From positions 434,001 to 498,000 of the forward strand of contig NZ_CANSMR010000001.1 in the NCBI RefSeq assembly GCF_947648125.1: DNA of 64,000 nt, in the 5' to 3' direction. Position numbers and translations under genes: made by a program. The DNA comes from an uncultured Bradyrhizobium sp. Its GTDB lineage: Bacteria > Pseudomonadota > Alphaproteobacteria > Rhizobiales > Xanthobacteraceae. The notes below the pieces were generated by a model. The model worked only from the letters and a program-made list of their open reading frames with translations, was not told the origin of the DNA and did not search any database. Positions 34,488-63,532 of this stretch are shown piece after piece (within the stretch, counting starts at the first letter, position 1; the number at the start of each line of letters is the position of its first letter).

Positions 34488-35438
34488 TCAGCGGTTCAGG
34501 ATCTTCAGCCAGACATCGCCGAGGATGATCGGCTCGCGCGGGGGAAGCCAGGTGAGGCTAGCTGCCTTGCCAAGCTCGGCGATGGTGCCTTTGGCTTGCA
34601 GATCGGCGAGCACCTTGTTGACGGCCTCCAGCAGCGCCTTGTCGGTTTCGAGCGCGACGTAGCCGCGGTTGGCGCCGATCGGATAGTAGTAGCCGGAGGC
34701 GGTGATTTTGGTGTCGGGATGATCAGCGCGGTAGGCGTCGAACCGGCGCAGGTCGAGCAGCGTGGCGTCGAATTCACCGCGTTCGAGCTCTCCCAGGAGA
34801 TCGCTACGCCCTGGAACGAGGTGGGTGATGTCCTCGATCAGCTTTCCCTTGTCGAAGGTCATCAGGATGGCATCGCCCAGCGTGCCGCTTTCGATCGTCA
34901 GGCGAAGGCCGGCGAGATCGCCGATATCGGTGACCTTGCGGTCCTTGAGCCGGTCCCGGGCCTTGGGGCCGAGCACGACGGTCATCGGTGAATAGATGTA
35001 GGGCTGGCTTGGCGCCAGCACCCCGATCGGAATCCGCCGGCGGCGATCGTCGCGCGTGGCGCCATCGAAGTCCGGCAGCTTGGCTGTCGCGACACCCGGC
35101 GCCTTCAGCGAGTCCGTGGTGAGGGCGTAGCCGCCGACCAGCGAGCATCGCCCGTCCGACAGCAACGCATTGGCCTCCAGCGCGGGGCTCGAATCCTCGT
35201 CGAGCTTGCTCTCGAACCACTGGATCTTGAGCGGCCGTCCGAGCCGCTCGGCGATGGTTTGCGCGAGCGCGACATCGAAGCCGGCATCCGGCTTGCCGCG
35301 GTGATGCGCCGACAACGGCGGCAGATCCTCATCGAGGCATACTTTGAGCGGCGCGTCGGCGGCATGCGCTGCCGCCGTCATGGCGACAAGCAAAGCTGTC
35401 GCTGCGCCCGCCAGGACGGCTCTCACGGGCGCTCTCAT
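34488..35438 (-). CDS. XoxJ-like periplasmic binding protein associated with a PQQ dehydrogenase
   Basis: A 316-residue family 3 solute-binding protein. The start at 35438 lies behind GGAGGACTCC; the longer frame to 35627 overlaps the cytochrome and was rejected. The signal peptide is MRAPVRAVLAGAATALLVAM, cleaved after AAHA, followed by LKVCLDEDLPPLSAH and FDVALAQTIAERLG. No permease accompanies it. Such lone proteins next to PQQ alcohol dehydrogenases (XoxJ/MxaJ) are thought to help maturation or activation of the enzyme rather than transport. It is the last gene of the dehydrogenase-cytochrome operon, with a four-base overlap. Confidence 0.78.
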   Translation of the reverse strand: MRAPVRAVLAGAATALLVAMTAAAHAADAPLKVCLDEDLPPLSAHHRGKPDAGFDVALAQTIAERLGRPLKIQWFESKLDEDSSPALEANALLSDGRCSLVGGYALTTDSLKAPGVATAKLPDFDGATRDDRRRRIPIGVLAPSQPYIYSPMTVVLGPKARDRLKDRKVTDIGDLAGLRLTIESGTLGDAILMTFDKGKLIEDITHLVPGRSDLLGELERGEFDATLLDLRRFDAYRADHPDTKITASGYYYPIGANRGYVALETDKALLEAVNKVLADLQAKGTIAELGKAASLTWLPPREPIILGDVWLKILNR

Positions 35439-35785
35439 GGAGTCCTCCGGCTCGACAGGAAGGCCCAGACGTCGGCGATCTCCTGCTCGCTCAGGATATC
35501 TGCCCAGGGCGGCATCTTGCCGTTCTTGCCTTGCTTCACGGTGGTCACAAAGCGCGTCTTGTCGTCGGGAAACGCGCGCAGGTCCGGCGTGATGGTGCCG
35601 GAGTTGACCATGTTGGGCCCATGGCAATGCGAGCAGTTCTTGGCGTAAGTGACCTTGCCCTGGTCGGCCTGACCCTGAAGGTCGATTGCACTGGCTTGCT
35701 GTGCGGCCGCCGGGATCAACGTGATCAAGGGCGCCGCGACGGCGGCGAAGATCGCCGCCGTCAACAGAGTTACTCTTTCAGTCAC
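35435..35785 (-). CDS. Cytochrome c, likely electron acceptor of the adjacent PQQ dehydrogenase
   Basis: A 116-residue monohaem class I cytochrome. It starts with GTG at 35785 five bases after GGAG. The signal peptide runs to about AAAQQ, the haem site is CSHCH in KNCSHCHGPN, and the axial Met is in GKMPPWADIL. Placed 13 bases after the dehydrogenase gene and overlapping the XoxJ-like gene by four bases, it should take electrons from PQQ in the periplasm. It is much smaller than XoxG/MxaG (about 170) and more like the short cytochromes that pair with ethanol-type PQQ enzymes. Confidence 0.85.
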   Translation of the reverse strand: MTERVTLLTAAIFAAVAAPLITLIPAAAQQASAIDLQGQADQGKVTYAKNCSHCHGPNMVNSGTITPDLRAFPDDKTRFVTTVKQGKNGKMPPWADILSEQEIADVWAFLSSRRTP

Positions 35786-35798
35786 GTGTGCTCCGCGC

Positions 35799-37463
35799 TC
35801 AGTTCTTGACCGCGAAAACCCACAGCGAGCCGCCGGGTGGGACCTTGGCAAGCCGCTCGTCGCCCGAGAACAGCGAATAGACGCCGCCATAGCCCGAGGT
35901 GACGGCTACATACTGCACGCCGTCCTGCTGCCAGGTCACGGGTTGTCCTTCGATGCCCGAGCCGGTCTGGAACTGCCAGAGCTTCTTGCCGGTATCGGCG
36001 TCGAATGCCTCGAATTCGCCGGTCAGCTGACCGGAGAACACCACGCCACCGGCGGTGGAGAGCACGCCGGAGAAGCGCGGAATGTCGCTTGGCACTTCCC
36101 ACTTCGCCTTGCCGGTCATCGGATCGATCGCCTTGAGATGGCCGCGCGGTCCGGTGCCCCATTCCCAGGGATCGGTGAGGTCCATGCCGACATACCATTC
36201 GCCCTGCTTGAACGTCACCGGTTCGGACTTGTACTTGCCGCCGAAGGCGAGCGTGTTGGCGTAAGCGAGGCCGGTCTGCGGATTGAACGACATCGGCTCC
36301 CAGTTCTTGCCGCCGAGGATCGACGGATAGACCGTGACCTTCTTGCCGTCACGTGCATCCTTGACGACGTCGGTCTCGATCGGCCGTCCGGTCTTCAGGT
36401 CTACACCGGTGGCCCAGTTGACGTTCACATAAGGATTGGCCGCGAGCAGCTTCCCGTTGGTGCGGTCGAGCACGTAGAAGAAGCCGTTGCGGTTGGCATC
36501 CATCAGTACCTTGGTCGGCTTGCCCTCGACATTCATGTCGGCGAGCACCATCTCGGCCACCGAGTCATAGTCGAACGGGTTGTTCGGCGAGAACTGGTAG
36601 TGCCACTTGATCTTGCCGGTCTTCGGATCGAGCGCCAGCACCGAGCAGGTGTAGAGGTTGTCGCCCGGACGCACCGCCGAGTTGAACGGTCCGGGATTGC
36701 CGATGCCCCAATACACGGTGTTCAGTTCGGCGTCATAGGAGCCGGTGATCCAGGTCGATCCGCCGCCCAGCTTCCAGGTGTCGCCCTTCCAGGTATCGCC
36801 GCCGGGCTCGTCCGGAGTCGGGATCGTGTAGGTCCGCCAGAGCTTCTTGCCGGTCGCCGGATCCCAGCCGTCGATGAAGCCGCGGGTGCCGAATTCGGCG
36901 CCGGAGATGCCGGTGATCACGACGCCATCGGCGACCAGCGGCGCCACCGTCATCGAGTAGCCTTCCTTGATGTCCGCGGCCTTCTCGCGCCACAGCTCCT
37001 TGCCCGTCTTGGCATCGAGCGCGATCACATTGGCGTCGAGGGTGGTGCGGAACAGCTTGCCGTCATACAGAGCCGCGCCGCGATTGATGATGCCGCAGCA
37101 GACGATACGCGGCGTCTCGGCGGGATATTCGACCTTGGTCTTCCAGATCTGCTTGCCGGTCTTGGCGTCGATCGCGATCGTCGCGTTGTGCGTGGTGACG
37201 TAAAGGACGCCCTGGTAGACGAGCGGCTGCGATTCCTCGCTGCGGTCGTCGTTCAAGCTGTAATTCCAGACCGGGACCAGATTCTTGACGGTGTCCTTGT
37301 TGATCTGGTTCAGCGTCGAGAAGCGCTGAAGATTGTAGCCCATTCCATAATTGAGAACGTTCGATGTATCAGTCGCACCCTTGACCAACTGCTCGTTGGT
37401 CTGAGCGCTTGCACCATAAGATGCAAGAATCACGAGGCTTGCGGCCAGCGCAATGCGTCTCAT
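35799..37463 (-). CDS. PQQ-dependent alcohol dehydrogenase, lanthanide-type (ExaF/PedH-like)
   Basis: A 554-residue periplasmic quinoprotein. The ATG at 37463 is 5 bases after GGAGG (a second ATG at 37466 is too close). The signal MRRIALAASLVILASYGASA is followed by eight propeller blades with repeated GWDPATGKKLW-like W motifs. The vicinal disulfide is C122-C123 in RIVCCGII. The catalytic base is D298 in FDYDS, and D300 two residues on is the extra Asp that marks lanthanide-binding enzymes (Ca enzymes have Ala, Ser or Thr there). It lacks the longer insertions of XoxF and more resembles ethanol or 2-phenylethanol dehydrogenases. It would oxidise primary alcohols to aldehydes with the cytochrome downstream. 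Confidence 0.88.
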   Translation of the reverse strand: MRRIALAASLVILASYGASAQTNEQLVKGATDTSNVLNYGMGYNLQRFSTLNQINKDTVKNLVPVWNYSLNDDRSEESQPLVYQGVLYVTTHNATIAIDAKTGKQIWKTKVEYPAETPRIVCCGIINRGAALYDGKLFRTTLDANVIALDAKTGKELWREKAADIKEGYSMTVAPLVADGVVITGISGAEFGTRGFIDGWDPATGKKLWRTYTIPTPDEPGGDTWKGDTWKLGGGSTWITGSYDAELNTVYWGIGNPGPFNSAVRPGDNLYTCSVLALDPKTGKIKWHYQFSPNNPFDYDSVAEMVLADMNVEGKPTKVLMDANRNGFFYVLDRTNGKLLAANPYVNVNWATGVDLKTGRPIETDVVKDARDGKKVTVYPSILGGKNWEPMSFNPQTGLAYANTLAFGGKYKSEPVTFKQGEWYVGMDLTDPWEWGTGPRGHLKAIDPMTGKAKWEVPSDIPRFSGVLSTAGGVVFSGQLTGEFEAFDADTGKKLWQFQTGSGIEGQPVTWQQDGVQYVAVTSGYGGVYSLFSGDERLAKVPPGGSLWVFAVKN

Positions 37464-37691
37464 CATATCCTCCCAATGAACCTTTTCCCGCACGCCTATT
37501 CCTGACGTTGCGGACGGAACCATCCCCCCGAAACCAAAACGGGTCAATACGAAAACGTGAACGAACCCCAGCAGCCTCGAGAGGCCGGTCGAAAGCCTCA
37601 GGTTTTCGCTGATGCGCCCGTAGCTTACCGCCACGTGGAATACACAACGCCATGTGTGACCCGCCGCTATGCCGCGGCGCGAACGGTTCGA

Positions 37692-38113: not shown

Positions 38114-38515
38114 ATGATGATTTCGCGCCGATCGCTTGCTTTGACTTTGGCCATGGCCGTGCTGTCAGGTCCTGCTCTGGCCGCATCGGGCGGTCGCAGC
38201 GCGCTCAAGATGCTCGATCCCGACAATGACGGCACGGTCGACCTTGCCGAAGCCAAGAAGGCTGCCGCCGATCTGTTCGCGAAGCTCGATTCCGATCACG
38301 ACGGCACGCTCGATGTGCGTGAATTGCGCGGACGGCTGACTGCGAAAGAGCTCAAGATGGCGGATCCGGATCACGACGGCACCCTGACGCTCGACGAGTA
38401 TCTCGCGGTCGTCGAGCAGCGCTTCAAGGCCGCCGATCCCGACAATGACGGAACGCTGGATGCGAAGGAGTTGAAGTCGCGCGCCGGCCGGGCGCTGCTG
38501 CGCCTGCTCAAATAG
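38114..38515 (+). CDS. lanM: Lanmodulin (lanthanide-binding EF-hand protein)
   Basis: A 133-residue secreted protein. The signal peptide (MMISRRSLALTLAMAVLSGP) ends at ALA-A. Four 12-residue EF loops follow at 35-46 (DPDNDGTVDLAE), 59-70 (DSDHDGTLDVRE), 84-95 (DPDHDGTLTLDE) and 108-119 (DPDNDGTLDAKE). Two traits separate lanmodulin from calmodulin. Pro is at loop position 2 (three of the four loops; the second has Ser), and neighbouring loops are only 12-13 residues apart instead of about 25. Asp at position 9 is kept in loops 1, 2 and 4. The whole layout and the C-terminal SRAGRALLRLLK match Methylorubrum LanM from memory. It would bind rare earths in the periplasm for, or away from, the PQQ dehydrogenases encoded nearby. 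AAGGGAGA is the ribosome site. Confidence 0.9.
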   Translation: MMISRRSLALTLAMAVLSGPALAASGGRSALKMLDPDNDGTVDLAEAKKAAADLFAKLDSDHDGTLDVRELRGRLTAKELKMADPDHDGTLTLDEYLAVVEQRFKAADPDNDGTLDAKELKSRAGRALLRLLK

Positions 38516-39196: not shown

Positions 39197-42100
39197 CTAG
39201 GAGCGGTTCTTGAAACGCGCATATCGAAGCGCGAGGGTAGGCAGCACCAGCAGACTGAGTGCCATCGAAGTCATCAGGCCCCCAAGGATGACGATCGCCA
39301 TCGGGCCCTCGATTTCACGTCCCGGTTCTCCTGCGCCGATCGCGAGCGGCAGCAATCCCAGGCCGGTTACGAGAGACGTCATCAGGATCGGGACGAGACG
39401 GTCGGCTGCGCCCTCGATCACGGTATCCAGTCCCCACACGCGACCGTCGACGAGGACGAGGTGCTCGTAGTGCGAGATCATGAGGATGGAGTTGCGCAGC
39501 GTGATTCCGAACAGCGTCACGAAGCCGACCATCGATCCGAGCGAAAGCAGGCCACCGGTCAATGCCAAAGCGAACACGCCACCGACAAAGGCAAATGGCA
39601 AGTTGATCATGACCAGCAGCAGATTTCGCCAATGGCCAGTAACCATCGCAAGCAGAATGACGATTCCTGTCCCGGCCAGCAAAGTGTTGACGATGAGATC
39701 GTGCCGCGAGCGGGCTTGGGCCTCGGCCGCTCCGGCAAATTCGACACGAGCACCGGGCGGCAGCGTGACCTCGCGGGCCAGCTTGCGTTTGGCGGCGGCC
39801 ACGAACGAATCGAGATCGCGTCCGCTGACGTTCGCCGTTACGGTCTGAACGCGCTGCGCATTCAGGTGCTGGATCTGATAACGGCCCGAGGTCTCGTAGA
39901 CGTCGGCGATTTGCTTCAACAGAATATAAGCGCCGCTCGGCGTGCGCACCGGTAGGTCACCGATCTGAGTCAGTCGGGCGCGGGCATGCGCGTCGAGGAT
40001 CACGATGACATTGAAGACGGCATTGCCTTCATACCCCTGGCCGACGACATCGCCCTGATAGGCGGTGCGAATCAGTTCGAGCACTTCGACCGCATCGAGC
40101 CCCCAGCGCTGCAGATCGGTCGGGCGAAGCGTCACATTGACCTGCGGCATCCCCGGCGGGGACCGTTGCTGCACGTCGACGGCGCCCGCGACTTCATCCA
40201 GTTCTCGCGCGACGTCGCGCGCCGCGCGTTCGAGTGAATCGAGATCGGGCCCGTAGATGTTGATGACCACCGCCGCGCTGAAGCCGGAGACGGTCTCCTC
40301 GACGCGTTCCGTCAGGTAGGTCTTGCTCGAGAAGGAAACCCCGGGGAAGTCGGCAAGAGCGGTCCTGATGCGGGCCTCTGCTGCGGATTGCGCCCGACCC
40401 GAGAGCCCCGGCTCCAGGTCGACCTCGAACTCGCTGGAATGCGGGCCAACCGTGTCGATGCCGGCCTCGGCACGGCCCGCATGCTGCGCCACTCTCCGCA
40501 CACCCGGGATTTGTCGGAGCGTATCGGTCATCAGTTTGCCGATACGAAGCGATTCGTCGAGCGAGGTGCCGGGGATCGCGGAGACGTGCAGAATCAGATG
40601 GCCTTCCCGCAGGTCGGGCAGGAAGGTCCCGCCGAAGAATGGCAGGATCGCCGCGCCGGCGATCGTCAAAGCCGCGGCCGCCGTCATCACCAGCTTCGGA
40701 TAACGGCCGATACGACGCAGCAACGCCTGGTAATACCGACGAGACCACCGCACCGCCGGCGGTTCATGCAGGCGCTGTCCGCCGGTCCTTCCGACGAGGA
40801 GCAGCATGGAGAGCGCCGGCGTCACCGTAAGGGCGACCGCGAGCGAGGCGAGCACGGCGAAGATGTAGGCGATGCCCAGGGGGCCGAAGAGACGGCCGGC
40901 AATGCCGGAGAGTGCCAGGATCGGAAAGAAGACCAGCAGCACCGCAAACGTCGCATAGGCAACGGCGGTACGCACCTCGAGGAATGCCTCGAGCACGACG
41001 CGAGCCTCCGATCTCGGCGCCGCTGCCCGGCGGTTCTCGCGCAATCGACGTACGACATTCTCGACGCCGATCACGGCGTCATCGACGACTTCGCCGATCG
41101 CGATTGCGAGGCCGCCCAGCGTCATCGTGTTGAGCGTTTCACCCATCCATTGCAGTGCGAGCACGGCCGCTATCAACGATAGGGGGATGGCAGTGCAACT
41201 GATGATCGAGGTGCGCCAGTCGAACAGAAATAGAAACAGAACAACGACCACGAGCACCCCGCCGATCAACAAGGCGTTGAGCACGTTCTCGGTCGCCGCG
41301 TCGATGAAATTGGCAGGGCGGAATATATCCGCATGGAGCCGAACTCCGTCGGCTTCAAGGCCAGGTCGCAGTTCTTGCAGGGCGGCTTCCGCCCGCGTGG
41401 TGACCTCTCGCGTATTCGCGCCGTATTGCTGGCTCACCATCAGCATGACGCCAGGCACGCCGTCGATGAGGGCGGCCCCGATTGGTGGCTCGGGAGCGGT
41501 CACGACGGTGGCGACGTCGCCGAGAACCACGCTTGCGCCGCCCTCGTGCAGAAGAACGGTGCGGGCAAGCTGGTCGGGCGTCAAAGACTGGCCCTGGGTT
41601 TGCAGCGTGATGCGCTGATTGGCGGTATCGATGAAGCCGGCGCCTCGTACACCGGTGGCCTTGCGCGCGGCGGCCAGTACATCATTCAGGCCGACCCGGA
41701 ACCGGATCAGGTCGTCCGGGCGGACCTGCACTTGCAGAGACCTGACATCTTTGCCGTAGGTGGATACTTGTGCCACGCCCGGTACGGCCAGAAGCCGTCT
41801 TGCCACCGTCCAGTCCGCAACGGTGCGCAAATCCATCAGCGAGCGCTGGTCGGACGTCAGGCCAATGACCAGCACCGTACCGGCCAGCGGGGTCAATGGT
41901 GTCATCGACGGCGGCTGCACGCCTTGTGGCAGCCGCGCGGCCACGACCGCGAGACGCTCCGTCACCAATTGGCGCGCCCGGTAGATGTCGCTGCCCGGGT
42001 GGAAGACCACCGTCACCACGGAGAGGCCCTGGATCGACGACGAGCGCAGACTTTCGACGCCAGCCAAGCCGTTGATCGACGTTTCGATCGGTTGTGTGAC

Positions 42101-42331
42101 CAGAATTTCGACATGCTCCGGGCTGAGGCCCGGCGCTTCGGTCTGGATCGCGACCTGTGGCGGTGCAAATTCGGGGAAGACTCCGTATTTGGCTTCGCCG
42201 AGCGTGAACAGGCCATAGCCGAGCAGCGCGAACGAAAGCGCGAGCACGATGCCACGGAAGCGGACGGCGAACGCGACGAGCGCGGCTTGCGGCCCGGACC
42301 TGTTGGAGCCGATGCCGTCAGTCATTGTCAT
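39197..42331 (-). CDS. RND efflux permease, heavy-metal (CusA/CzcA-like) type
   Basis: A 1044-residue inner-membrane RND transporter. It has TM1 near residue 30, a first periplasmic loop (KYGVFPEFAPPQVAIQTEAP), TM2-6 from about 340, a second loop and TM8-12 near the end. The opening stretch and GLAGVESLRSSS are typical of the HME family. The TM4 segment (about residues 405-425) reads GGLAIAIGEVVDDAVIGVEN, with the acidic residues that carry protons or metal in HME pumps. Which metal is moved is not clear. The start at 42331 overlaps the end of the membrane-fusion gene by 14 bases. No outer-membrane channel gene is present. Its position next to pqqA and lanM makes a role in metal balance plausible. 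Confidence 0.85.
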   Translation of the reverse strand: MTMTDGIGSNRSGPQAALVAFAVRFRGIVLALSFALLGYGLFTLGEAKYGVFPEFAPPQVAIQTEAPGLSPEHVEILVTQPIETSINGLAGVESLRSSSIQGLSVVTVVFHPGSDIYRARQLVTERLAVVAARLPQGVQPPSMTPLTPLAGTVLVIGLTSDQRSLMDLRTVADWTVARRLLAVPGVAQVSTYGKDVRSLQVQVRPDDLIRFRVGLNDVLAAARKATGVRGAGFIDTANQRITLQTQGQSLTPDQLARTVLLHEGGASVVLGDVATVVTAPEPPIGAALIDGVPGVMLMVSQQYGANTREVTTRAEAALQELRPGLEADGVRLHADIFRPANFIDAATENVLNALLIGGVLVVVVLFLFLFDWRTSIISCTAIPLSLIAAVLALQWMGETLNTMTLGGLAIAIGEVVDDAVIGVENVVRRLRENRRAAAPRSEARVVLEAFLEVRTAVAYATFAVLLVFFPILALSGIAGRLFGPLGIAYIFAVLASLAVALTVTPALSMLLLVGRTGGQRLHEPPAVRWSRRYYQALLRRIGRYPKLVMTAAAALTIAGAAILPFFGGTFLPDLREGHLILHVSAIPGTSLDESLRIGKLMTDTLRQIPGVRRVAQHAGRAEAGIDTVGPHSSEFEVDLEPGLSGRAQSAAEARIRTALADFPGVSFSSKTYLTERVEETVSGFSAAVVINIYGPDLDSLERAARDVARELDEVAGAVDVQQRSPPGMPQVNVTLRPTDLQRWGLDAVEVLELIRTAYQGDVVGQGYEGNAVFNVIVILDAHARARLTQIGDLPVRTPSGAYILLKQIADVYETSGRYQIQHLNAQRVQTVTANVSGRDLDSFVAAAKRKLAREVTLPPGARVEFAGAAEAQARSRHDLIVNTLLAGTGIVILLAMVTGHWRNLLLVMINLPFAFVGGVFALALTGGLLSLGSMVGFVTLFGITLRNSILMISHYEHLVLVDGRVWGLDTVIEGAADRLVPILMTSLVTGLGLLPLAIGAGEPGREIEGPMAIVILGGLMTSMALSLLVLPTLALRYARFKNRS

Positions 42332-43385
42332 CGCCGCCCCGAAGCTGGCTCTTGGCCTCCTCGGACAGCAAGACCTGTGCGCCCCGGACTACGATTTCGG
42401 ATCCCGATGGGATGTCTCGGACGACGTAGTCGTCATCCGAGACCGGCTGATCCGTGCTGATCGGATGCCGTCGGAAGCTGTCGGGGCTCACGCGCAGGTA
42501 AATCCACGATCGGCCCTGCCATCGCACAATCGCCGTATCTTCAATGAACACGCCCTCGTAAGTGTTGCCGGACGGCACATAGACAGTGGTGTTCATGCCG
42601 GGCAGCAGGCCGCTGTCGCCGGGAGCTGAGAAGAAGTAGCTCAATCCCTGAATACGGGGGTCGGTGCGTGTTGCCGGGGAGACGTACTGGAGATCGATAT
42701 TCGCATTTCGCGTCGGCGCTTGCGCCAGAGCCGCTCCTGGAGTTCCGGTGACACTCACGCCGGGCGGCAGCGTCACCTGAACCAGAAACTGATCGCGCTC
42801 GATCAGCCTGACAACGGCGGGCGAGCGCTCGACGATTCCGCGGCCGATCACCGGCCCCCATTCCTGCTGTGCTGTTGCGGCGAGAGTCCTGAGCTGCGAT
42901 TCCGCTGCGGCAAGCGCGGCCTTGTCGGTCCGCAACGTTCCCTCTGCGGTCTCGGCTTCCTTTTTCGGGAGCGCGGCGGAGTCGACGAGATTCTTGGTCC
43001 GGTCGAATGCGCTCTTTGCGACTTCGAGCTTGGCTAGCGCTGTCTGGACTTGAGCCTGCGCATTGGCGTAGCTGTTGGCGAGCTCGGTAATGCGGGATAT
43101 GTCCAGCACTGCACCGTATGCGCGGAATTGCTCAGGATGCGGGGCGGCTTCCACAACCGCGGTTTCGAGTCCGATCTGTCCCTGCTGGCTGGGCGTCAGC
43201 TTGACCGCTGCCTGGTCGCTGTTTGCGGTGCGGGAAGGCTCCGTGCGGCCCGAATCCGATTTGTCCGGCTGCGGCTCCGCAGCTGCGCGCCTGACTTGAC
43301 CCGTGAGAGGCCAAGCGCCGGCGGCGAGCGCCAGCAAGCACACCGCGACCGCGACGCCGCGCCAGGAGGTTTCCGTAAGAGCCAT
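42318..43385 (-). CDS. RND membrane fusion protein (HlyD/CusB-like)
   Basis: A 355-residue periplasmic adaptor. The ATG at 43385 (MALTETSWRGVAVAVCLLAL) gives a signal anchor; a longer frame to 43454 has no better start. Next come an Asp/Ser-rich linker, LTPSQQGQIGLETAVVEAAP (the metal-pump adaptor opening), a coiled-coil hairpin (about 120-175, AQVQTALAKLEVAKSAFDRT), a shortened lipoyl domain and a beta-barrel with PGMNTTVYVPSG. It links the permease to an outer-membrane channel encoded elsewhere. The mature part has no His- or Met-rich metal site. Confidence 0.82.
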   Translation of the reverse strand: MALTETSWRGVAVAVCLLALAAGAWPLTGQVRRAAAEPQPDKSDSGRTEPSRTANSDQAAVKLTPSQQGQIGLETAVVEAAPHPEQFRAYGAVLDISRITELANSYANAQAQVQTALAKLEVAKSAFDRTKNLVDSAALPKKEAETAEGTLRTDKAALAAAESQLRTLAATAQQEWGPVIGRGIVERSPAVVRLIERDQFLVQVTLPPGVSVTGTPGAALAQAPTRNANIDLQYVSPATRTDPRIQGLSYFFSAPGDSGLLPGMNTTVYVPSGNTYEGVFIEDTAIVRWQGRSWIYLRVSPDSFRRHPISTDQPVSDDDYVVRDIPSGSEIVVRGAQVLLSEEAKSQLRGGDDND

Positions 43386-43596
43386 CAGCCTGTTAGCAGT
43401 TGTTGGGAACCAGCTTATTGACGAAATGAACTGACGGCAAGGCGCCGGTTTCACAGGTGCCGGCTCGGGTCAGGTCGGCGTGCATGCGGGGCCGTGACCG
43501 CCAAGTTCCGCTTGATCTCGCACGGAATTGAAACTTCCGGCTGCTGCGGGCGTAGCGCTTATGTTATCTTTTGAGGACGCCCGCGAGGTTTCATGC

Positions 43597-47121: not shown

Positions 47122-47946
47122 TCAGGTCCCGGGATTCTCGACCTTCCATTCGTGGTCGAAGACGTGCCCGTCGGTGTCCTTGGCCTCGGCACGGAAGTGC
47201 TTGGCGCCATTCGAGACGTAGGTGAAGCGAATGTTGGGGTCCTCTGAAATCGAGATCCCGCCCTCCATCGCGAGCACCGGACTGTCATCCTGCCAGATGT
47301 GCAGCTCATTGACGAAGAAGGCCGGGATATAGAGCTGCGTGACCTGGTCCATCTGCAGGCCTGAATTGTTCGGATGCCCGATCATGATCTGGGCTTCCCG
47401 TGTGCTTGTCGCCGGCCCCTGTTCGGACTTTGTGAATTGCCGATAGCGCATCTGGCCGAGCCGATTCTTCGCTTCCTCGACGTTCTTGCCGGCCGGTGCC
47501 GAGCAGCCGCCGGATGCTTTGACATAGACCTTGCTCACGTAGAGCTTGCCGTCGCTAAGCTCGGCGACGGCGTGCACATTGGTGTAGTTGTTGACCCGGA
47601 CCCGGGTCGAGATCTCGGTGACATTGGCGTCGGGACCGAGCGTGAATTTTGCGGCCATCGGCGCCGGGTTCTCGTCGATGACAAGCGTGATCGCGACGAC
47701 GCGGCGGCTGTCGCCGGGCTGCAGCTTGGTGCGCAGCGTCACCGGCACGATTGCCGCGTCTTCCGCGCGCGCCGGCATCTCGATGCCGATGATATCGTTG
47801 CCGTCATTCATCGGACGATTGCTGAAGATGTCCTGGACGAGACCCGGCCAGGGATCATAGGTCTCGGCCGCGGACGCAGCGGGTGTCCCCAGCGCGATCG
47901 TCAGAAGGCTGGCGATGCAAAGCAGGCGGGCGCGGTGTCCAGTCAT
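47122..47946 (-). CDS. Quinoprotein dehydrogenase-associated SoxYZ-like carrier
   Basis: A 274-residue fusion of a SoxY-like and a SoxZ-like domain with a signal peptide (MTGHRARLLCIASLLTIALG to ASA). The first domain ends in KASGGCSAPAGKN, which corresponds to the swinging GGCGG arm of SoxY. The second starts near AQIMIGHPNNSGLQMD, a SoxZ hallmark. Proteins of this family (TIGR04557) occur only with PQQ dehydrogenase systems and carry an unknown cargo on the Cys. The metallohydrolase gene beside it, on the same strand 43 bases upstream, is its usual partner in the so-called quinoprotein relay. Confidence 0.82.
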   Translation of the reverse strand: MTGHRARLLCIASLLTIALGTPAASAAETYDPWPGLVQDIFSNRPMNDGNDIIGIEMPARAEDAAIVPVTLRTKLQPGDSRRVVAITLVIDENPAPMAAKFTLGPDANVTEISTRVRVNNYTNVHAVAELSDGKLYVSKVYVKASGGCSAPAGKNVEEAKNRLGQMRYRQFTKSEQGPATSTREAQIMIGHPNNSGLQMDQVTQLYIPAFFVNELHIWQDDSPVLAMEGGISISEDPNIRFTYVSNGAKHFRAEAKDTDGHVFDHEWKVENPGT

Positions 47947-47989
47947 GTTCGCGAGATCCTATGCAGCCGCGTCATTATAGGACGAACAG

Positions 47990-48916
47990 CTACTCCCATT
48001 CAATTTCCGAGAATGCTGCAGTTGCGTTGCGAGCGTTGTAGTCGTCGAACAGTTGCCAGCGTGGCCGCTCGGCCGCCGCGGCGTGCTCCGCCGCAGCCGT
48101 GATCGGCTTGCCGCTTGCGACCAGCGCGCGGACGTCCGCGGCCAGCATCTCAAGATAACGCCGCTCGTCGGCAAGCGCCGCGGGCCACGCACTCACGGGG
48201 CCGTGACCGGGAACCACGCGCTCGGCGGGAATAGCCTGGAGGTCGTCGAGCGCATGCAGCCAGCCCTTGAGGCTGCCGTCGACCACGGGAATATGCTCGA
48301 GGAACACCAGATCGCCGGCGAACAGGGTCTGGGTGCGTTCATCGAACACCGTGAGGTCGTTGTCGCTGTGGGCCGGTGGCCATGCCTTCAGGGTGAGGGT
48401 CCTTCCGCCGAGGTCGAGTTTCAGCGTGTCCGCGACCAGCATGGTCGGCGGAATGATCCGGACCTCGTCGATCAACGCATCGCCCATGGTCCGGCGAAAG
48501 CCGTCGAGATAGAATTGCCCGCGCGCCGCCAGCGCGCGGGGCAGGGCCTTGTGGCCGACGAAGCTGGTCCCGTCAGCGACGAACGCCGCGTTGCCGAAGC
48601 TATGATCCGGATGCGCGTGGGTGTTGATCACGTAGCGGATCGGCTTGTCGCTATGGCTGCGCACCGCGGCGAGCAATTGCTGCCCTTCGCGGACGCTGCC
48701 GCCGGTGTCGATGACGGCAATGGCGCTGTCGCCGACTACGAAGCCGACATTGGCGATGGCGCCTTCGTTGTCGCGCGTCATCAATGCAGTGACCCCGGTG
48801 TGAACGAATATTCCGGGGGCGACTTCGCTCACAGGCAATTCCGCCTCTTGAGCCCGCGCTATGGTCGGCGCCCAAAGCATCAGGAGCAGCGCAAGCACCG
48901 AACCGCCATGAGCCAT
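47990..48916 (-). CDS. Quinoprotein relay system zinc metallohydrolase (MBL fold)
   Basis: A 308-residue periplasmic metallo-beta-lactamase-fold protein. The signal peptide ends at IARAQ. The zinc motif THAHPDH is intact, as are the further ligands in PPAHSDND and [11 protein letters not shown]. Family TIGR04558 members accompany PQQ dehydrogenases and the SoxYZ-like carrier, and are thought to release the carrier cargo. It is upstream of the carrier gene on the minus strand, and divergent from the binding-protein gene at 49084 with a 167-base gap. Confidence 0.85.
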
Positions 48917-49083
48917 GTTTCCGCCTCAGTTTTTCCCGGACGCGCGAGCGATGTCGCCGCGCTCCCGTTTGCGCTGCAACAAGCAACGCGGCGCCGTCGC
49001 GATCATTATCCCTGTTGCACGTCATGGTGCGCCGGGCAATTGGTGGACGGCGGCAATCTGTCCGATCAAGAGGAGACCGCGCA

Positions 49084-49965
49084 ATGAGAGTTATCGGATG
49101 CCGTCCTGTTCTGCTCGCGCTTGCCGGCTTCATCGTCTGTCTCGCCGGCCGCGACGTCGCGCGTGCGCAGGTCAATGAGCAGGGCGAACTCTCCATCGAG
49201 CTGGTCGATCCCAAGGTGCTGCGCATCTGCGCCGATCCGCGCAACCTGCCGTTCTCGAATGACAAGGGCGAGGGCTTTGAGAACAAGATCGGCGAGCTGT
49301 TCGCCGAGAAGCTGCAAAAGAAGCTGGATTATATGTATTTCCCGCAGGCGACCGGCTTCGTGCGGGTCACGCTCGGCTCGCATCGCTGCGACGTGATCAT
49401 GGGCTTTCCGCAAGGCGACGACCTCGCGCAGGGGACCAATCCGTATTACCGCACGGCCTATGCGATCGTTGCCAAGCCGGGCAGTGGACTGGATGAGGTC
49501 ACGACGCTCGAGGATGCGCGGCTGAAGGGCAAGCATATCGGCATCGTCGCCGGAACGCCGCCCGCAACCAACATGGCCATCAACGGCCTGATGAGCAATG
49601 CGAAGCCTTATCCGCTGATGATCGACACGCGCTATGATTCCTCGGCCGAGGCGATGATGAACGACCTCGAAAAGGGCGAGATCGACGCTGGCATCCTGTG
49701 GGGGCCGATGGCCGGCTTTTATGCCAAGAAGGCGACCCCGCCGCTGCATGTCACGCCGCTGCTGAAGGAGACCACAGGACCCAAGCTGGTCTATCGCATC
49801 GGCATGGGCGTGCGGGCGTCCGATCAGAACTGGAAGCGGCAGCTCAATCGCCTGATCCAGGAGAACCAGCCGGCGATCAACAAGATCCTGCTCGACTTCG
49901 GCGTTCCGCTGCTCGACGAGAACGACCGTCCGATCGGGCCGGAGACTGCGACCAAATCGCCATGA
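49084..49965 (+). CDS. Quinoprotein dehydrogenase-associated ABC-type binding protein (XoxJ-like)
   Basis: A 293-residue family 3 binding protein. The signal is MRVIGCRPVLLALAGFIVCL, cleaved near ARAQ. VLRICADPRNLPFSNDKGEG is the diagnostic opening of TIGR03871 proteins, then CDVIMGFPQGDDLAQGTNPY. AAGAGGAGACC precedes the ATG at 49084. No cognate permease is next to it. By analogy with XoxJ/MxaJ it may assist PQQ-enzyme assembly. It overlaps the next gene by four bases. It is a different subgroup from the XoxJ-like gene at 34488. Confidence 0.85.
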   Translation: MRVIGCRPVLLALAGFIVCLAGRDVARAQVNEQGELSIELVDPKVLRICADPRNLPFSNDKGEGFENKIGELFAEKLQKKLDYMYFPQATGFVRVTLGSHRCDVIMGFPQGDDLAQGTNPYYRTAYAIVAKPGSGLDEVTTLEDARLKGKHIGIVAGTPPATNMAINGLMSNAKPYPLMIDTRYDSSAEAMMNDLEKGEIDAGILWGPMAGFYAKKATPPLHVTPLLKETTGPKLVYRIGMGVRASDQNWKRQLNRLIQENQPAINKILLDFGVPLLDENDRPIGPETATKSP

Positions 49966-50516
49966 TCAAGCTCGCGGCCATGCTTGCGGTGATATTGCTC
50001 GCCGTTTCGCATGTCCGCGCGCAGGACCCGCCTACAGAGCCCGAGGGCTACCGGACCGAGGATTATCGCGCGCCGGTGCCGATCACGCTTGCAGGCGCAC
50101 GCGTGCTCACGACCACGGAGGCGGAAGCGATCTGGCGCGACAAGTCCGGCGCGTTCGTCGACGTGCTGCCGCGCGCGCCGAAGCCCAATCTGCCGGCCGG
50201 CACGGTGTGGCGCGAGCGGCCGCATCGCGATATTCCCGGCAGCATCTGGTTGCCCGACACCGGCTACGGCAAGCTCGCCGCATCGACCGAGGACTATCTG
50301 CGGCGCGGCCTCGCCCGTGCTTCCGGCGACGACAAGGTCAGATTGCTCGTGATCTATTGCCAGGAAAATTGCTGGATGTCATGGAACGCCGCCAAGCGCG
50401 TGCTTTCCTACGGCTACCGCAACGTGGCGTGGTATCCGGAGGGAACCGACGGCTGGGAGCGTGCCAACCTGCCGCTGGCGGATGCGGAGCCCGAGCCGCG
50501 CGAGAGCGAGCAGTGA
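49962..50516 (+). CDS. PQQ-dependent catabolism-associated CxxxCW-motif protein (rhodanese-like)
   Basis: A 184-residue exported protein of the rhodanese fold. The signal peptide is MIKLAAMLAVILLAVSHVRA. The family mark is YCQENCWMSWNAAKR (TIGR03865), followed by GYRNVAWYPEGTDGWE. The ATG at 49962 overlaps the preceding stop. It is known only from PQQ alcohol-oxidation loci and its activity is untested as far as I know; a thiol or sulfur-carrier reaction linked to the SoxYZ-like protein is likely. Confidence 0.85.
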   Translation: MIKLAAMLAVILLAVSHVRAQDPPTEPEGYRTEDYRAPVPITLAGARVLTTTEAEAIWRDKSGAFVDVLPRAPKPNLPAGTVWRERPHRDIPGSIWLPDTGYGKLAASTEDYLRRGLARASGDDKVRLLVIYCQENCWMSWNAAKRVLSYGYRNVAWYPEGTDGWERANLPLADAEPEPRESEQ

Positions 50517-50554
50517 GCCCGTCCTTGCACGGCTGGGGAAAATGCTCCAGCGAG

Positions 50555-50851
50555 CTACTTCTGCTTGTCGAGCTTGCTGATGGCCTTGCCGCCGTCGCCG
50601 TCAGTGGTGGTGAACGTTACCTTGTCACCGGCGTGAAGCTCTTCGAGCGACTGTCCCTTGGGCACCTTGTATTCCTGAATGGCGCCCCCGGCCGCGCCCA
50701 CCGTGCCGGTTTGCGTCTGTTGGATCGAGATGGTTCCACTTAGTCGGTCAATCTTGGTGACCATTCCCGACATGGATTGCTGGGCCAAAGCCGCTGTGGT
50801 GATCAGGCTCGCGGCGGCGAGGCTGGTCATGACGATCTTGGCTGCTCTCAT
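50555..50851 (-). CDS. DUF1344-like small exported protein
   Basis: A 98-residue protein with a signal peptide (MRAAKIVMTSLAAASLITTA to ALAQ) and an OB-like small beta-barrel, MSGMVTKIDRLSGTISIQQT, then EELHAGDKVTFTTTD. The pattern of a permanent GTVTKID and HAGDKV is that of the DUF1344/CusF-like group, in which some members bind copper. The Met/His ligands of CusF are not all present. It follows the ABC-associated operon on the minus strand. Confidence 0.75.
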   Translation of the reverse strand: MRAAKIVMTSLAAASLITTAALAQQSMSGMVTKIDRLSGTISIQQTQTGTVGAAGGAIQEYKVPKGQSLEELHAGDKVTFTTTDGDGGKAISKLDKQK

Positions 50852-50950
50852 CGAGGTCTCCCAACTTCAGATATAGTTGGAGACAACGAGCGGGCGGGGC
50901 AGTTTGTTCCGGCGGCCTGTTGATGATCGCTGGGGCGATCGGCCGCAGGC

Positions 50951-51568
50951 CTAATCCAGCTCCTGCTGGATGGTGCGGCCCAGCGCGAACAGCCGCTGGT
51001 CGATGATGGTCGGCACCTCGCAGACGAATTTCACCACGCGTCCGCGGTCCTCGAATATCCGCGTCTCCCAGACCAGCTGGTTGCCGAGTTCGTCGACCTT
51101 GGCCTGGTCCGGCGGCGTGGCGTCCTGCAACGCCTGAAGCGCGATCGTGTCGGCGCGGATCTTTTCCGCGGCCTCGCGCTGCTTGCGCATCACGCGCTCC
51201 AGCCCGTTCATGACCGAGGCCCGCTGGCCGTTGAGCGTATCGAACAGGCCCGCGAACAGCAGTTTTCCCGCATTGGCCTTGTCAGCCGCGGCGGCCGACA
51301 GGAAATCGGTGATCTCCTTCTGCGCATCCTCGAGCGGAACGCGGCGCGCCGCGAGCTTGGTCGCAAGTTGGCTGATCTTCGGATCGTCCCGCCACTTGGT
51401 CTCGGCATCGCCGAGCGGCGGCCCGGCCCAGACCGCGGCGAGCGAGATCTCGGGCACCTTGGCCTGCGCGCAAGGCCAGTCCGGATAACGCGGGTCGGCA
51501 GCGAACGCGACCTGGTTCGACAGAACCATCGCGAGCGCCGCGCCCAGTGCTGGCCGCCAGCCTGTCAT
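50951..51568 (-). CDS. Exported protein encoded with PQQ/lanthanide ABC exporter-type operon
   Basis: A 205-residue secreted protein. The ATG at 51568 overlaps the permease stop by four bases (the longer frame to 51979 lies inside the permease gene). The signal peptide (MTGWRPALGAALAMVLSNQV to AFA) is followed by DPRYPDWPCAQAKVPEISLA, then a helical body with LLFAGLFDTLNGQRASVMNG, and a late FVCEVPT. The last gene of such ABC operons in methylotrophs is often an exported protein like this; it may correspond to lutG, but I could not confirm that. One disulfide between the two Cys is likely. Confidence 0.7.
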   Translation of the reverse strand: MTGWRPALGAALAMVLSNQVAFAADPRYPDWPCAQAKVPEISLAAVWAGPPLGDAETKWRDDPKISQLATKLAARRVPLEDAQKEITDFLSAAAADKANAGKLLFAGLFDTLNGQRASVMNGLERVMRKQREAAEKIRADTIALQALQDATPPDQAKVDELGNQLVWETRIFEDRGRVVKFVCEVPTIIDQRLFALGRTIQQELD

Positions 51569-52413
51569 GCCTCGCCTCCGCCGGGTCCGCGGCGCGCCAG
51601 GCCGCGCGATGGATCGTAGGCCAGGATCGCGCCGATCATGAACACCACCGTGCAGCCGCCGACCACCGCGAGCGAAACCCAGTTCATCTTGCCGTACAGC
51701 GCAAACCGGATCAGCTCCACCGCATGCGTGAACGGATTGCACTGGCAGACATAGTACAGCATCGGACTGCCTTCCTGCACACGCCAGAGCGGGTAGAGGG
51801 CCGACGACGCGAAGAACATCGGGAAGATCACAAAGTTCATCACGCCGGCGAAATTTTCCAGCTGCTTGATGCTGGCCGAGATCAGCATGCCCAATGCGCC
51901 GAGCATCAGGCCCGAGAGCATCAGCGCCGGAAGCACGGTGAGGTAGCCGATGGTCGGCGGTGTCATGTCCCAGAACCACGCGATCAGCAGGAAGGCGTAG
52001 ACCTGGAGCAGCGACACCGCGGTGCCGGCGAGCAGCTTGCAGAACAGGAGATAGCCGCGCGGAAGCGGGCTGACCAGCAGCGTGCGCATGTTGCCCATTT
52101 CGCGGTCATAGACCATCGACAGCGACGATTGCATGCCGTTGAAGAGCTGGATCATCGCCATCAGGCCGGGCGCAATATAGACCTCATAGAGGATGTAGGT
52201 CTCATAGGGCGGGATGATCGAGATGCCGAGCACCTGCCGGAAGCCGGCGGCGAAGATGAACAGCCAGACCAGCGGCCGGACCAGCGCCGAGACGAAGCGC
52301 TCGCGCTGATGCAGGAAGCGCAGCGCCTCGCGCCATACGATGCCGTTCAGGCAGACGATGTATTCCGACACCGAGAAGCCGCTTCGCTCAGGCGTGACCG
52401 TCGTGCTGCTCAT
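51565..52413 (-). CDS. ABC-2 type transporter permease (PQQ alcohol system)
   Basis: A 282-residue ABC-2 membrane protein with six membrane segments: LVWLFIFAAGFRQVLGI, then YIAPGLMAMIQLFNGMQSSL and MGNMRTLLVSPLPRGYLLF, the ABC-2 signature loop. Family TIGR03861 (PedC-like) is found with PQQ alcohol dehydrogenases; the equivalent in the Methylorubrum lanthanide cluster is LutF by memory. It overlaps the ATPase gene and the exported-protein gene by four bases each. Confidence 0.85.
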   Translation of the reverse strand: MSSTTVTPERSGFSVSEYIVCLNGIVWREALRFLHQRERFVSALVRPLVWLFIFAAGFRQVLGISIIPPYETYILYEVYIAPGLMAMIQLFNGMQSSLSMVYDREMGNMRTLLVSPLPRGYLLFCKLLAGTAVSLLQVYAFLLIAWFWDMTPPTIGYLTVLPALMLSGLMLGALGMLISASIKQLENFAGVMNFVIFPMFFASSALYPLWRVQEGSPMLYYVCQCNPFTHAVELIRFALYGKMNWVSLAVVGGCTVVFMIGAILAYDPSRGLARRGPGGGEA

Positions 52414-54190: not shown

Positions 54191-54204
54191 ACGTTTCATC
54201 TCCC

Positions 54205-55386: not shown

Positions 55387-55544
55387 AATTCCTCCCGCAG
55401 TCATTCTTCACCGGGCATGGCGTTGTCGAAAAGCGACTTCGCTATTCCGGCCCAAGCGTTGACTTGCAAGATGCCGGAATTGGCCTAGCTTGCAACCCCG
55501 CTTTTTGTCGTTGCGCGGTACCAAATTTCGATTGGTTCACAATC

Positions 55545-56060: not shown

Positions 56061-56109
56061 AGCAGTCCTTCGCTCGCAATAACGTTGATGGGGCGACGGC
56101 AGTCCATCT

Positions 56110-56221
56110 CCGTCACCCTGAGGAGCGCGCTCTTTGCGCGCGTCTCGAAGGGTCGACGGCCACCAGCCGGGCCGTGCATCCTTCGAGACGGCCGCGTTGC
56201 GGCCTCCGCAGGATGACGGGA
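56110..56221. repeat. Dispersed palindromic repeat (CCGTCACCCTGAGGAG type)
   Basis: CCGTCACCCTGAGGAGCGCG at the left is mirrored by CCTCCGCAGGATGACGGG at the right, with further paired arms inside (CGTCTCGAAGGGTCGACGGC and CATCCTTCGAGACG). The same long hairpin element is common between genes in Bradyrhizobium. It lies between convergent genes and may help end both transcripts. Confidence 0.7.
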
Positions 56222-56250
56222 TACGCACCCTTCCCGCGGTGAAGTGACGC

Positions 56251-57096: not shown

Positions 57097-57120
57097 ATTC
57101 CTCTGTGTTGGAGCGCGACG

Positions 57121-57741: not shown

Positions 57742-57905
57742 GGCGTTGTTCCGGCGACCTGCTTCGATTCACTCTTCGTCCACATCGATTTGCACGAAGA
57801 ACACCTCGGTTCCGACCGGTTGTGCACCTCGCACGAGATTGCGATAGGGTGCGATTAGATAGCCGGGCAAATTTGGCTGTCAACGATCCTCTCGGAGGAG
57901 GAGTC

Positions 57906-59701: not shown

Positions 59702-59730
59702 GGCGTGGCGCCTGCACGCCAGGCGAAACG

Positions 59731-61126: not shown

Positions 61127-62932
61127 ATGCGCAAGTTGCTTTACGCGACCAGCCTTGGGGCAATGGCGGTGTTCGCCGCCGGAGCTGCCAACGCCAATGA
61201 CGAACTCCACAAGATGGCGCAGAACCCGAAAGACTGGGTGATGCCGACCGGCGACTACACCAATCAGCGGTATTCGAAGCTGAATCAGATCAACGCCTCG
61301 AACGTCGGAAAGTTGCAGGTAGCGTGGACGTTTTCGACCGGCGTGCTGCGCGGTCACGAAGGTGGCCCGCTGATCATCGGCAACATGATGTACGTGCATA
61401 CGCCGTTCCCGAACAAGGTCTACGCTATTGACCTTTCCAAGGACAACCAGATCGTCTGGAAGTACGAGCCGAAGCAGGATCCGAACGTCATTCCGGTAAT
61501 GTGCTGCGACACGGTCAATCGCGGCGTCGCCTATGGTGACGGCAAGATCATCCTGCATCAGGCCGACACCACGCTGGTTGCGCTCGATGCGAAGACCGGC
61601 AAGGTCGAGTGGAGCGTCAAGAACGGCGATCCGAGCAAGGGATCGACCGGTACGTCGGCGCCGATGGTCGTCAAGGACAAGGTCCTGGTCGGCATCTCTG
61701 GCGGCGAGTTCGGCGTTCAGGCCCACATGACGGCCTACGACCTCAAGACCGGCAAGCTGGTCTGGCGCGGATTCTCGGAAGGCCCGGATGACCAGCTCCT
61801 GGTCGACGACAAGACTACCGAGCTTGGCAAGCCGATCGGCAAGGACTCGAGCTTGAAGACGTGGCAAGGCGATCAGTGGAAGATCGGCGGCGGCGCGACC
61901 TGGGGCTGGATCTCCTATGATCCCGAACTCAACCTCGTCTATTACGGATCGGGCAACCCCTCGACCTGGAATCCGAAGCAGCGTCCCGGCGACAACAAGT
62001 GGTCGATGACGATCTGGGCGCGCAACCCGGATACCGGCGTTGCCAAGTGGGTCTATCAGATGACGCCCCATGACGAATGGGACTATGACGGCGTCAACGA
62101 GATGATCCTCTCGGATCAGAGCATCGACGGCAAGGCGCGCAAGCTGCTGACGCACTTCGATCGTAACGGCCTCGGCTACACGCTCGATCGCGCCACCGGC
62201 GAACTGCTGGTCGCCGAGAAGTATGATCCGAAGGTGAATTGGACCTCCGGCGTCGACATGAACAAGAGCTCGCCGACCTATGGTCGTCCGAAGGTTCTTG
62301 ACGCAGCGTCGACCGACAAGGCCGGCGAAGACCACAACGTCAAGGGCATCTGCCCGGCGGCGTTGGGTTCGAAGGACGAGCAGCCGGCGGCCTATTCGCC
62401 GGACACGCAGCTGTTCTACGTGCCGACCAACCACGTCTGCATGGACTACGAGCCGTTCAAGGTCAGCTACACCGCAGGTCAGCCCTATGTCGGCGCGACG
62501 CTGTCGATGTATCCGCCCCCCGGTGAGACCAACATGGGCAACTTCATCGCCTGGGACGGCAAGACCGGCAAGATCGTGTGGTCGAACAAGGAGCAGTTCT
62601 CGGTCTGGTCGGGCGCACTCGCGACCGCCGGCGGCGTGGTGTTCTACGGCACGCTGGAAGGCTACCTGAAGGCAGTCGACGCCAAGACGGGCAAGGAGCT
62701 CTACAAGTTCAAGACCCCGTCCGGCATCATCGGCAACGTCACCACCTATGAGAACGGCGGCAAGCAGTACATCGCCGTGCTGTCGGGTGTTGGCGGTTGG
62801 GCAGGCATCGGCCTCGCGGCTGGTCTGACTGATCCGACGGCCGGTCTGGGTGCAGTCGGTGGCTATGCCGCGCTGAGCAACTATACCGCGCTCGGCGGAA
62901 CGCTCACCGTGTTCTCGCTGCCGCAGCAGTGA
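61127..62932 (+). CDS. xoxF: Lanthanide-dependent PQQ methanol dehydrogenase XoxF (XoxF5-like)
   Basis: A 601-residue quinoprotein. The signal peptide ([20 protein letters not shown]) ends at ANAND. The mature part opens [20 protein letters not shown], the XoxF signature. The redox disulfide is C126-C127 in [11 protein letters not shown]. The catalytic Asp is D319 in [11 protein letters not shown], and D321 is the fourth acidic ligand that distinguishes XoxF from the calcium enzyme MxaF (Ala there). The C-terminus contains [20 protein letters not shown], also typical of clade 5. It oxidises methanol, possibly through to formate, in the periplasm with XoxG. GGGAGGAAATCC precedes the ATG. No MxaI small subunit is present, as expected. 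Confidence 0.96.
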
Positions 62933-62948
62933 GCTGAGCAAGCTCGTT

Positions 62949-63010: not shown

Positions 63011-63532
63011 TTGCGTAAGATCTGGTTTGTGAGTGCTGCGATCTTCGTCGTGGCAATGGGTGGAGTTGCCTCCGCCGAGGACGTGGGTGATCCAGCCGCC
63101 GTCAAGTCCGAGGACGGCAAGTATCTCGACAAGGATGGCAACCCAACGTTCAAGGTGACGTCCGACGGTACGGTGGACTGGTACACCTACTCCGGCTACC
63201 GCCGTTATCATTCGGAGTGCCACGTCTGCCACGGACCCGACGGCATGGGCTCGACATACGCGCCGGCGTTGAAGGACTCGCTCAAGACCATGAGCTATGC
63301 CGACTTCATGGGTGTGGTCGCGAGCGGGCGCAAGAATGTATCGACGTCGCAGGAAAACGTCATGCCGGCATTCGGCGATAATCCGAACGTTGCCTGCTAC
63401 ATGGACGACCTCTATGTGTACCTGCGCGCCCGCGCCAATGATGCGGTTGGGCGTGTCCGGCCGGCCAAGCACGAAGACAAGTCGGATGCCTATGGAAAGG
63501 CGGAAGACGCCTGCATGGGCAACAAGAACTGA
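63011..63532 (+). CDS. xoxG: Cytochrome c, electron acceptor of XoxF (XoxG)
   Basis: A 173-residue monohaem cytochrome of cytochrome cL size. The start is TTG at 63011, with AGGATAGG just upstream. The signal peptide is MRKIWFVSAAIFVVAMGGVA, then AEDVGDPAAVKSEDGKYLDK. Haem binds at C70 and C73 with H74 (CHVCH), and M118 in ENVMPAFG is the axial Met. A late Cys pair, in NVACYMDDL and EDACMGNKN, may form a disulfide. Its place 78 bases after xoxF and its length match XoxG. Confidence 0.92.
   Translation: MRKIWFVSAAIFVVAMGGVASAEDVGDPAAVKSEDGKYLDKDGNPTFKVTSDGTVDWYTYSGYRRYHSECHVCHGPDGMGSTYAPALKDSLKTMSYADFMGVVASGRKNVSTSQENVMPAFGDNPNVACYMDDLYVYLRARANDAVGRVRPAKHEDKSDAYGKAEDACMGNKN

Follow-up and report, generated by a model that had tools for sequence, protein, structure and literature searches.

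The window analysed here is a stretch of 64,000 nucleotides from an uncultured Bradyrhizobium sp. It carries a lanmodulin gene (lanM) whose divergent neighbour, 647 bp off, encodes a PQQ-dependent alcohol dehydrogenase (ADH), together with a XoxF5-type methanol dehydrogenase 23 kb from lanM. A first-pass annotation made from the sequence had placed the gene beside PQQ dehydrogenase genes, and this description of the surroundings was borne out. The features are as follows.

34488..35627, minus strand: ORF for a periplasmic family-3 solute-binding protein, third co-directional gene; true start probably inside the ORF (Pfam PF00497, E 6.9e-10)
35435..35890, minus strand: c-type cytochrome ORF (CSHCH) downstream of the ADH; true start probably inside the ORF (Pfam PF13442, E 1.8e-15)
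35799..37466, minus strand: PQQ-dependent ADH, D-x-D (PFDYDSVAE), non-XoxF, start MMRRIAL chosen by eye (TIGR03075, motif, tree)
37543..37554, plus strand: conserved element GTCAATACGAAA on the ADH side of the lanM-ADH intergenic region (conservation)
38114..38515, plus strand: lanM, lanmodulin, 133 aa (NCBIfam NF053806, PDB LanM matches, AlphaFold2 model and Foldseek)
38114..38182, plus strand: probable signal peptide MMISRRSLALTLAMAVLSGPALA, cleavage before Ala24 (by eye; homologue alignment)
38216-38251, plus strand: LanM EF1 (from residue offsets)
38288-38323, plus strand: LanM EF2 (from residue offsets)
38363-38398, plus strand: LanM EF3 (from residue offsets)
38435-38470, plus strand: LanM EF4 (from residue offsets)
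61127..62932, plus strand: XoxF5-type lanthanide methanol dehydrogenase, a possible client of LanM (best PDB match 6oc5, an M. extorquens-type XoxF, 1080 bits; D-Y-D)
63011..63532, plus strand: c-type cytochrome (CHVCH) beside xoxF5, probable XoxG (position and motif in the ORF)

The product of the ORF at 38114-38515 is a lanmodulin, as the first-pass annotation had claimed; the curated family model, the sequence itself, the spacing of the loops, the number of Pro residues and the predicted fold agree on this. Against the NCBIfam lanmodulin equivalog NF053806 it scores 188.7 bits (E 4e-56), passing the cut-off of 135 by 54 bits. The top matches of a PDB sequence search were the Mex-LanM chains of Methylorubrum extorquens AM1 (6mi5 and 8fns, both ~1e-32, the best at 1.3e-32), followed by Hans-LanM of Hansschlegelia quercus (8dq2, 4e-21) and an Ancylobacter chain (9pi2, 2e-19), with the best non-LanM chain at E 8.6e-06. 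Lanmodulins are described as having four EF hands 12–13 residues apart in fewer than 200 residues, with Pro at position 2 (Pro2) of at least one loop (PMC10232371); the protein has 133 aa, gaps of 12, 13 and 12 residues, and Pro2 in EF1, EF3 and EF4. An AlphaFold2 model built on 36 homologues, LanM homologues among them, reached a mean pLDDT of 81.9, scoring at least 90 at 79 of 133 residues and low in the signal region, and matches the LanM three-helix-bundle fold with its peripheral sites. When this predicted model was submitted to Foldseek, E <= 0.001 was reached by LanM structures only (4 of 835 matches). Nd-bound Mex-LanM (8fns) came top at an rmsd of 0.6 A and a TM-score of 0.96 by target length, Hans-LanM (8dq2) superposed at an rmsd of 1.5, and the first other fold followed at E 0.01. 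It would be highly improbable for the ORF to encode a calmodulin-type calcium protein that merely resembles LanM. Generic Pfam EF-hand models do match it, but the best calmodulin in the PDB search reached 6.1e-05, far worse than Mex-LanM, and the margin over the equivalog cut-off, the absence of non-LanM folds below a Foldseek E of 0.01, the short spacing and the three Pro2 residues all argue against this reading. We therefore reject it on the family model, the PDB search and Foldseek; both the alignment and the structure prediction by which the first-pass annotation proposed to check its claim came out in favour of LanM, and the better fit to calmodulin-type proteins that it had named as refuting its claim was not seen.

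lanM begins at ATG 38114 or 38117, behind AAGGGAGACGA, and stops at TAG 38513-38515; the N-terminal sequence of its product is MMISRRSLALTLAMAVLSGPALAASGG. It is the single LanM match at E <= 0.001 in the 8.57 Mb assembly, and seven pairwise comparisons with Bradyrhizobium homologues gave a dN/dS of 0.05–0.15. The loops, of 12 residues each, are DPDNDGTVDLAE (EF1), DSDHDGTLDVRE (EF2), DPDHDGTLTLDE (EF3) and DPDNDGTLDAKE (EF4). Re-reading the sequence returned the same gaps as the first-pass annotation, along with its Pro2 in three loops (Ser in EF2) and its Asp at position 9 in three (EF1, EF2 and EF4; Thr in EF3). Moreover, the ligand set D1, D3, D5, T7 and E12 is complete in all four loops.

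The protein shares with Mex-LanM the four EF loops, the 12–13 spacing, Pro2 in three of four loops and the same predicted fold, with 58% identity over 103 columns. It differs from Mex-LanM in EF2 (S2 for P2), EF3 (T9 for D9) and EF4 (D1 for N1), the last a change that the first-pass annotation had passed over, and the gene lies beside a PQQ-ADH operon, whereas lanM of AM1 is reported within the lut cluster. Fold (predicted here) and spacing are likewise those of Hans-LanM, at 42% identity; however, the loops of the latter are reported to start with Asn and to carry E9 in EF1-3, in contrast to D1 in all four loops and D or T at position 9 here. LanM of Methylobacterium aquaticum 22A resembles the window protein in that Pro2 is reportedly missing from some loops and in that its gene lies away from the lut genes, and differs in that T and K replace Pro2 in its EF1 and EF2; its published description names no PQQ-ADH neighbour.

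LanM matches were found in 217 of 265 Bradyrhizobium genomes, 200 of them over the cut-off. An order-wide sample of 397 genomes gave some LanM match in 284, with 29 over the cut-off, several of these from Bradyrhizobium; the weak order-wide matches are probably for the most part other EF-hand proteins. Loop variation was examined in one LanM per genome from 120 Bradyrhizobium genomes, the window's included, a sample of 20 loci and 100 stretches drawn from the head of a list ranked by score and thus representing its better-scoring part. EF3 carried Thr at position 9 in 120/120. Position 2 of EF2 was Pro in 112, Arg in 3, Ser in 2, Ala in 2 and Gly in 1; position 2 of EF1 was Thr in 88, Pro in 29 and Ser in 3; and EF4 began with Asn in 90 and Asp in 30. 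Within this sample Thr9 of EF3 is a genus trait and Ser2 of EF2 is nearly private to the window's protein. Of these two changes, from which the first-pass annotation had suggested that metal preference may differ, Thr9 is therefore the likelier functional difference, and Ser2, present in 2/120 genomes, is unlikely to be an adaptation. In Mex-LanM, D9 is reported to hydrogen-bond to metal-bound solvent (PMC10232371), and thus the EF3 metal site may be retuned by Thr9. By its sequence, Asp1 of EF4 is the natural counterpart of the Mex-LanM variant N108D, which gained a tighter fourth site: its Gd stoichiometry reportedly rose from ~2.2 to 3.8 and its apparent affinity went from 6e-12 to 1.4e-12 M (PMC11561317). 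The LanM gene tree is little resolved (4 of 69 inner branches starred) and none of our claims rests on it.

The N-terminus, MMISRRSLALTLAMAVLSGPALA followed by A, looks signal-like by eye, in keeping with the signal peptide of the first-pass annotation. A twin-arginine motif, [ST]RR followed by hydrophobic residues, is present in 95 of 106 ADH-linked LanMs and in 99 of the 120 Bradyrhizobium LanMs overall. S-R-R is lost in some close relatives and present in Tardiphaga and Xanthobacteraceae loci; it is absent from ~40 Methylobacterium, Methylocystis and Hyphomicrobium loci among those listed. Twin-arginine export, which would mean that LanM folds before export, was considered and is kept as unlikely: the two arginines are 93% and 97% conserved, no better than neighbouring positions of the signal peptide, and 11 of the 106 ADH-linked proteins are without the strict motif. 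PedH is reported to carry an arginine pair as well; single deletion of tatC1 or tatC2 left La-dependent growth unaffected, and the double mutant was not obtained (PMC6839425).

The divergent ADH scores 710 bits against TIGR03075 (cut-off 480) and is one of seven TIGR03075 dehydrogenases over the cut-off in this genome. Within its catalytic stretch, PNNPFDYDSVAEM, FDYD aligns to WDFD of PedH and WDYD of XoxF, and the position of the second Asp is occupied by Ser, Thr and Ala in the calcium enzymes 1flg, 1kv9 and 1g72, respectively. With D-x-D at the metal site, the enzyme looks to be of the lanthanide type. It is not a XoxF, a possibility that we reject on a 38-row tree in which the ADH and its B. 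mercantei orthologue form a long branch outside the XoxF/MxaF group. Its sister group comprises ExaA, PedH and a Methylobacterium homologue (support 88/92, not starred), and the branch itself does not fall inside the PedH/ExaF clade. PedH, the lanthanide-dependent ethanol dehydrogenase of Pseudomonas putida (6zcv, 6zcw), is the nearest solved structure by sequence and shares D-x-D and the adjacent Cys pair; however, identity is 41% (38% to the window's XoxF5), the branches are deeply separate, and PFDYDSVAE and CCG stand here against WDFDGVNE and CCD in PedH. A cytochrome match adjoins the ADH in 92/92 ADH-linked loci with 2.6 kb flanks. The solute-binding-protein ORF matches a MoxJ-like model at E 0.0013, far below the cut-off. 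The order ADH, cytochrome and solute-binding protein is presumably that of a xoxF-xoxG-xoxJ unit. The same genome encodes a second, related PQQ-ADH (G000:C27:45444-47048; locus L108), with PYDYDSVAEN and CCG and a tree branch of its own.

Between lanM and the ADH lies a short conserved element. It was counted in intergenic regions cut from a fixed ADH start, at those 106 loci of the 120 sampled genomes where lanM is linked to the ADH. GTCAAYACGAAA was found upstream of the ADH start in 106/106, and GTCAATACGAAA was exact in 99, with C for one T in the remaining 7. Its core, CAATACGAAA, begins 64–80 nt from the ADH start. On the ADH strand the element reads TTTCGTATTGAC, of which TTGAC could belong to a -35 hexamer; a scan of the intergenic region with the sigma-70 consensus returned no promoter-like site. 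Its conservation suggests that the element is functional. A role as the operator of a regulon is unsupported, since the exact GTCAATACGAAA occurs once in the whole genome and matches with up to 2 mismatches in the window are near chance (4 matches, where shuffled sequences average 1.87 and 14 of 100 shuffles reach 4).

The linkage of lanM to this ADH extends across the genus. Upstream of lanM the 120 genomes have the divergent ADH in 106, XoxF5 in 3 and a different PQQ-ADH in 2, and in 9 no PQQ-ADH match fell within the examined lanM stretch. Some of the exceptions can be explained: in genome G147 the ADH lies at a distance of 2.6 kb, and G079 and G126 each carry a second copy of lanM that is linked to the ADH. 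Among named loci, with flanks of up to 8 kb and some much shorter, lanM is ADH-linked in 26/32 from Bradyrhizobium, and any PQQ-ADH match near lanM was seen in 0/48 from other genera. Co-occurrence was scored over 265 genus genomes with a strong lanM (n = 201, leaving out 16 weaker matches) and with the ADH at E <= 1e-200: 184 genomes have both, 17 lanM alone, 12 ADH alone and 52 neither. These counts, like those for XoxF5 below, ignore kinship among genomes, and the adjacency of lanM and ADH may be inherited synteny.

A different type of arrangement occurs at L027 and L029, and also at L083 and L088 (B. tropiciagri SZCCT0338, B. mercantei), where a PQQ-ADH is followed downstream by a lanM of a second type. 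The quinohaemoprotein ADHs of L027 and L029, the two in which the motif was read, have DYT at the metal site, which is calcium-like. Adjacency to a PQQ-ADH thus does not always mean a lanthanide enzyme. At the Methylobacterium locus L049 no LutH was found near lanM, and the neighbours look by eye like ABC genes for branched-chain amino acids together with a two-component system.

XoxF5 is also near lanM, so that the ADH need not be the client of LanM and XoxF5 may be the real one. Possible, if somewhat unlikely in our estimation, is that LanM serves methanol oxidation by XoxF5, the ADH being adjacent only because both belong to one inherited lanthanide/PQQ island. XoxF is reported as the methanol enzyme of Bradyrhizobium (PMC12628762), and XoxF5 is present in 245/265 genomes of the genus and in 199 of the 201 with a strong lanM (lanM alone in 2, XoxF5 alone in 46, neither in 18). 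It shares a contig with lanM in 100 of the 106 genomes compared, the distance being at most 10 kb in 73 and at most 30 kb in 99 of these 100 (measured in G079 and G126 from the lanM copy that is linked to the ADH). Furthermore, in genomes lacking the ADH, lanM can adjoin XoxF5 (3/120 loci; close in G107 and G133). However, lanM tracks the ADH (phi 0.71) more closely than XoxF5 (phi 0.44) across the 265 genomes, kinship ignored; the nearest PQQ gene is the ADH and not XoxF5 in most sampled genomes; and at the threshold XoxF5 had no match in two genomes, G135 and G170, that have a strong lanM and an ADH match (weaker in G170, E 6e-210). We see the locus above all as a lanthanide/PQQ island to which both ADH and XoxF5 belong.

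On the far side of lanM, at 39200-43454 on the minus strand, are an RND transporter (CusA/CzcA-type, 651 bits, below the cut-off of 701) and an adaptor ORF. Of the 120 Bradyrhizobium loci, 23 have an RND match close to lanM (17 among the 100 whose flanks measure 2.6 kb), and this minority feature has the look of an insertion into a syntenic block. Beyond it, at 47122-63532, is a methanol-oxidation island, with several genes assigned by eye, comprising a SoxYZ fusion, a quinoprotein-relay metallohydrolase, a MoxJ-like binding protein, ABC genes, response regulator and histidine-kinase-like ORFs, xoxF5 and a cytochrome.

From its place in the LanM family, its predicted fold and full set of ligands, and from the conserved linkage and the element before the ADH observed here, we think it likely that this is a periplasmic lanmodulin acting as buffer or carrier of lanthanide for PQQ dehydrogenases, namely the ADH and XoxF5. 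By analogy with characterised LanMs, the protein would be exported and its signal peptide cleaved, and the mature apo-protein would be largely disordered. Its EF loops would bind three to four trivalent lanthanide ions, upon which it would fold into the LanM three-helix bundle, and it would then buffer lanthanide or carry it to the divergent D-x-D ADH and to XoxF5. Characterised LanMs are also our guide to the affinity, selectivity, disorder-to-order switch, lanthanide induction and client enzymes to be expected of it. lanM is reported to rise 4.25-fold in Methylobacterium aquaticum 22A on methanol with La, LanM protein to be up 39- and 26-fold with lanthanide in Methylocella silvestris, and lanM to be the most upregulated gene with lanthanide in RH AL1.

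It is unlikely, in our view, that LanM acts chiefly as a sink or sensor of lanthanide, protecting the periplasm or reporting on the metal, and donates to no enzyme. Deletions of lanM in Methylobacterium aquaticum 22A and M. extorquens PA1 reportedly caused no methanol growth defect, and in 22A LanM was dispensable for XoxF metalation (PMC9260416), findings that speak for a sink or sensor and that weaken any claim of an essential chaperone. lanM of RH AL1, moreover, is reported to respond to La without methanol, its authors leaving storage, shuttling and homeostasis open (PMC10848612). Against this, lanM is linked to PQQ dehydrogenase genes across the genus, which speaks for a role connected with these enzymes, although linkage alone does not show donation. 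Within the reading of LanM as a buffer or carrier, a more specific version can be put forward tentatively, as a dedicated LanM-ADH pair: the protein would have four strong sites where EF4 carries Asp1 and an EF3 retuned by Thr9, would be co-controlled with the divergent ADH, and would be the metal donor of a non-XoxF lanthanide-dependent enzyme of an uncharacterised clade.

The window's LanM is an ordinary member of its family, and LanMs of Bradyrhizobium have already been published. One genome is reported to encode a LanM with Pro in three EF hands that is not co-localised with XoxF (PMC10875860), and 15 plasmid sequences were listed in 2025 (PMC12482762); as far as these accounts go, neither describes the divergent ADH, Thr9, Asp1 or the upstream element. 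A study of lanthanide-dependent growth in Bradyrhizobium and Sinorhizobium describes homologues of lut genes along with several PQQ dehydrogenases predicted to use lanthanide, and a term search of its main text found neither 'lanmodulin' nor 'lanM' (PMC12628762). The first-pass annotation had called rhizobial lanmodulins little studied, which fits these sources: they are genome-survey reports, and no biochemistry was found in them. A literature search covering titles and the beginnings of abstracts, mostly outside subscription papers, returned no report of lanM beside a non-XoxF PQQ-ADH in Bradyrhizobium. As far as this literature extends, what is new here is the link of lanM to a non-XoxF ADH across the genus, together with the element upstream of that ADH, Thr9 as a trait of the genus and the natural occurrence of Asp1 in EF4.

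The hosts are nitrogen-fixing soil symbionts that are reported to grow on methanol with lanthanides. In a genus where lanM usually has a single lanthanide-type dehydrogenase as its neighbour, the role of LanM in cells, and whether it loads a particular enzyme, can be addressed directly by genetics. Moreover, the natural differences in EF2, EF3 and EF4 form a ready set for the study of lanthanide affinity and selectivity, of relevance to rare-earth recovery.
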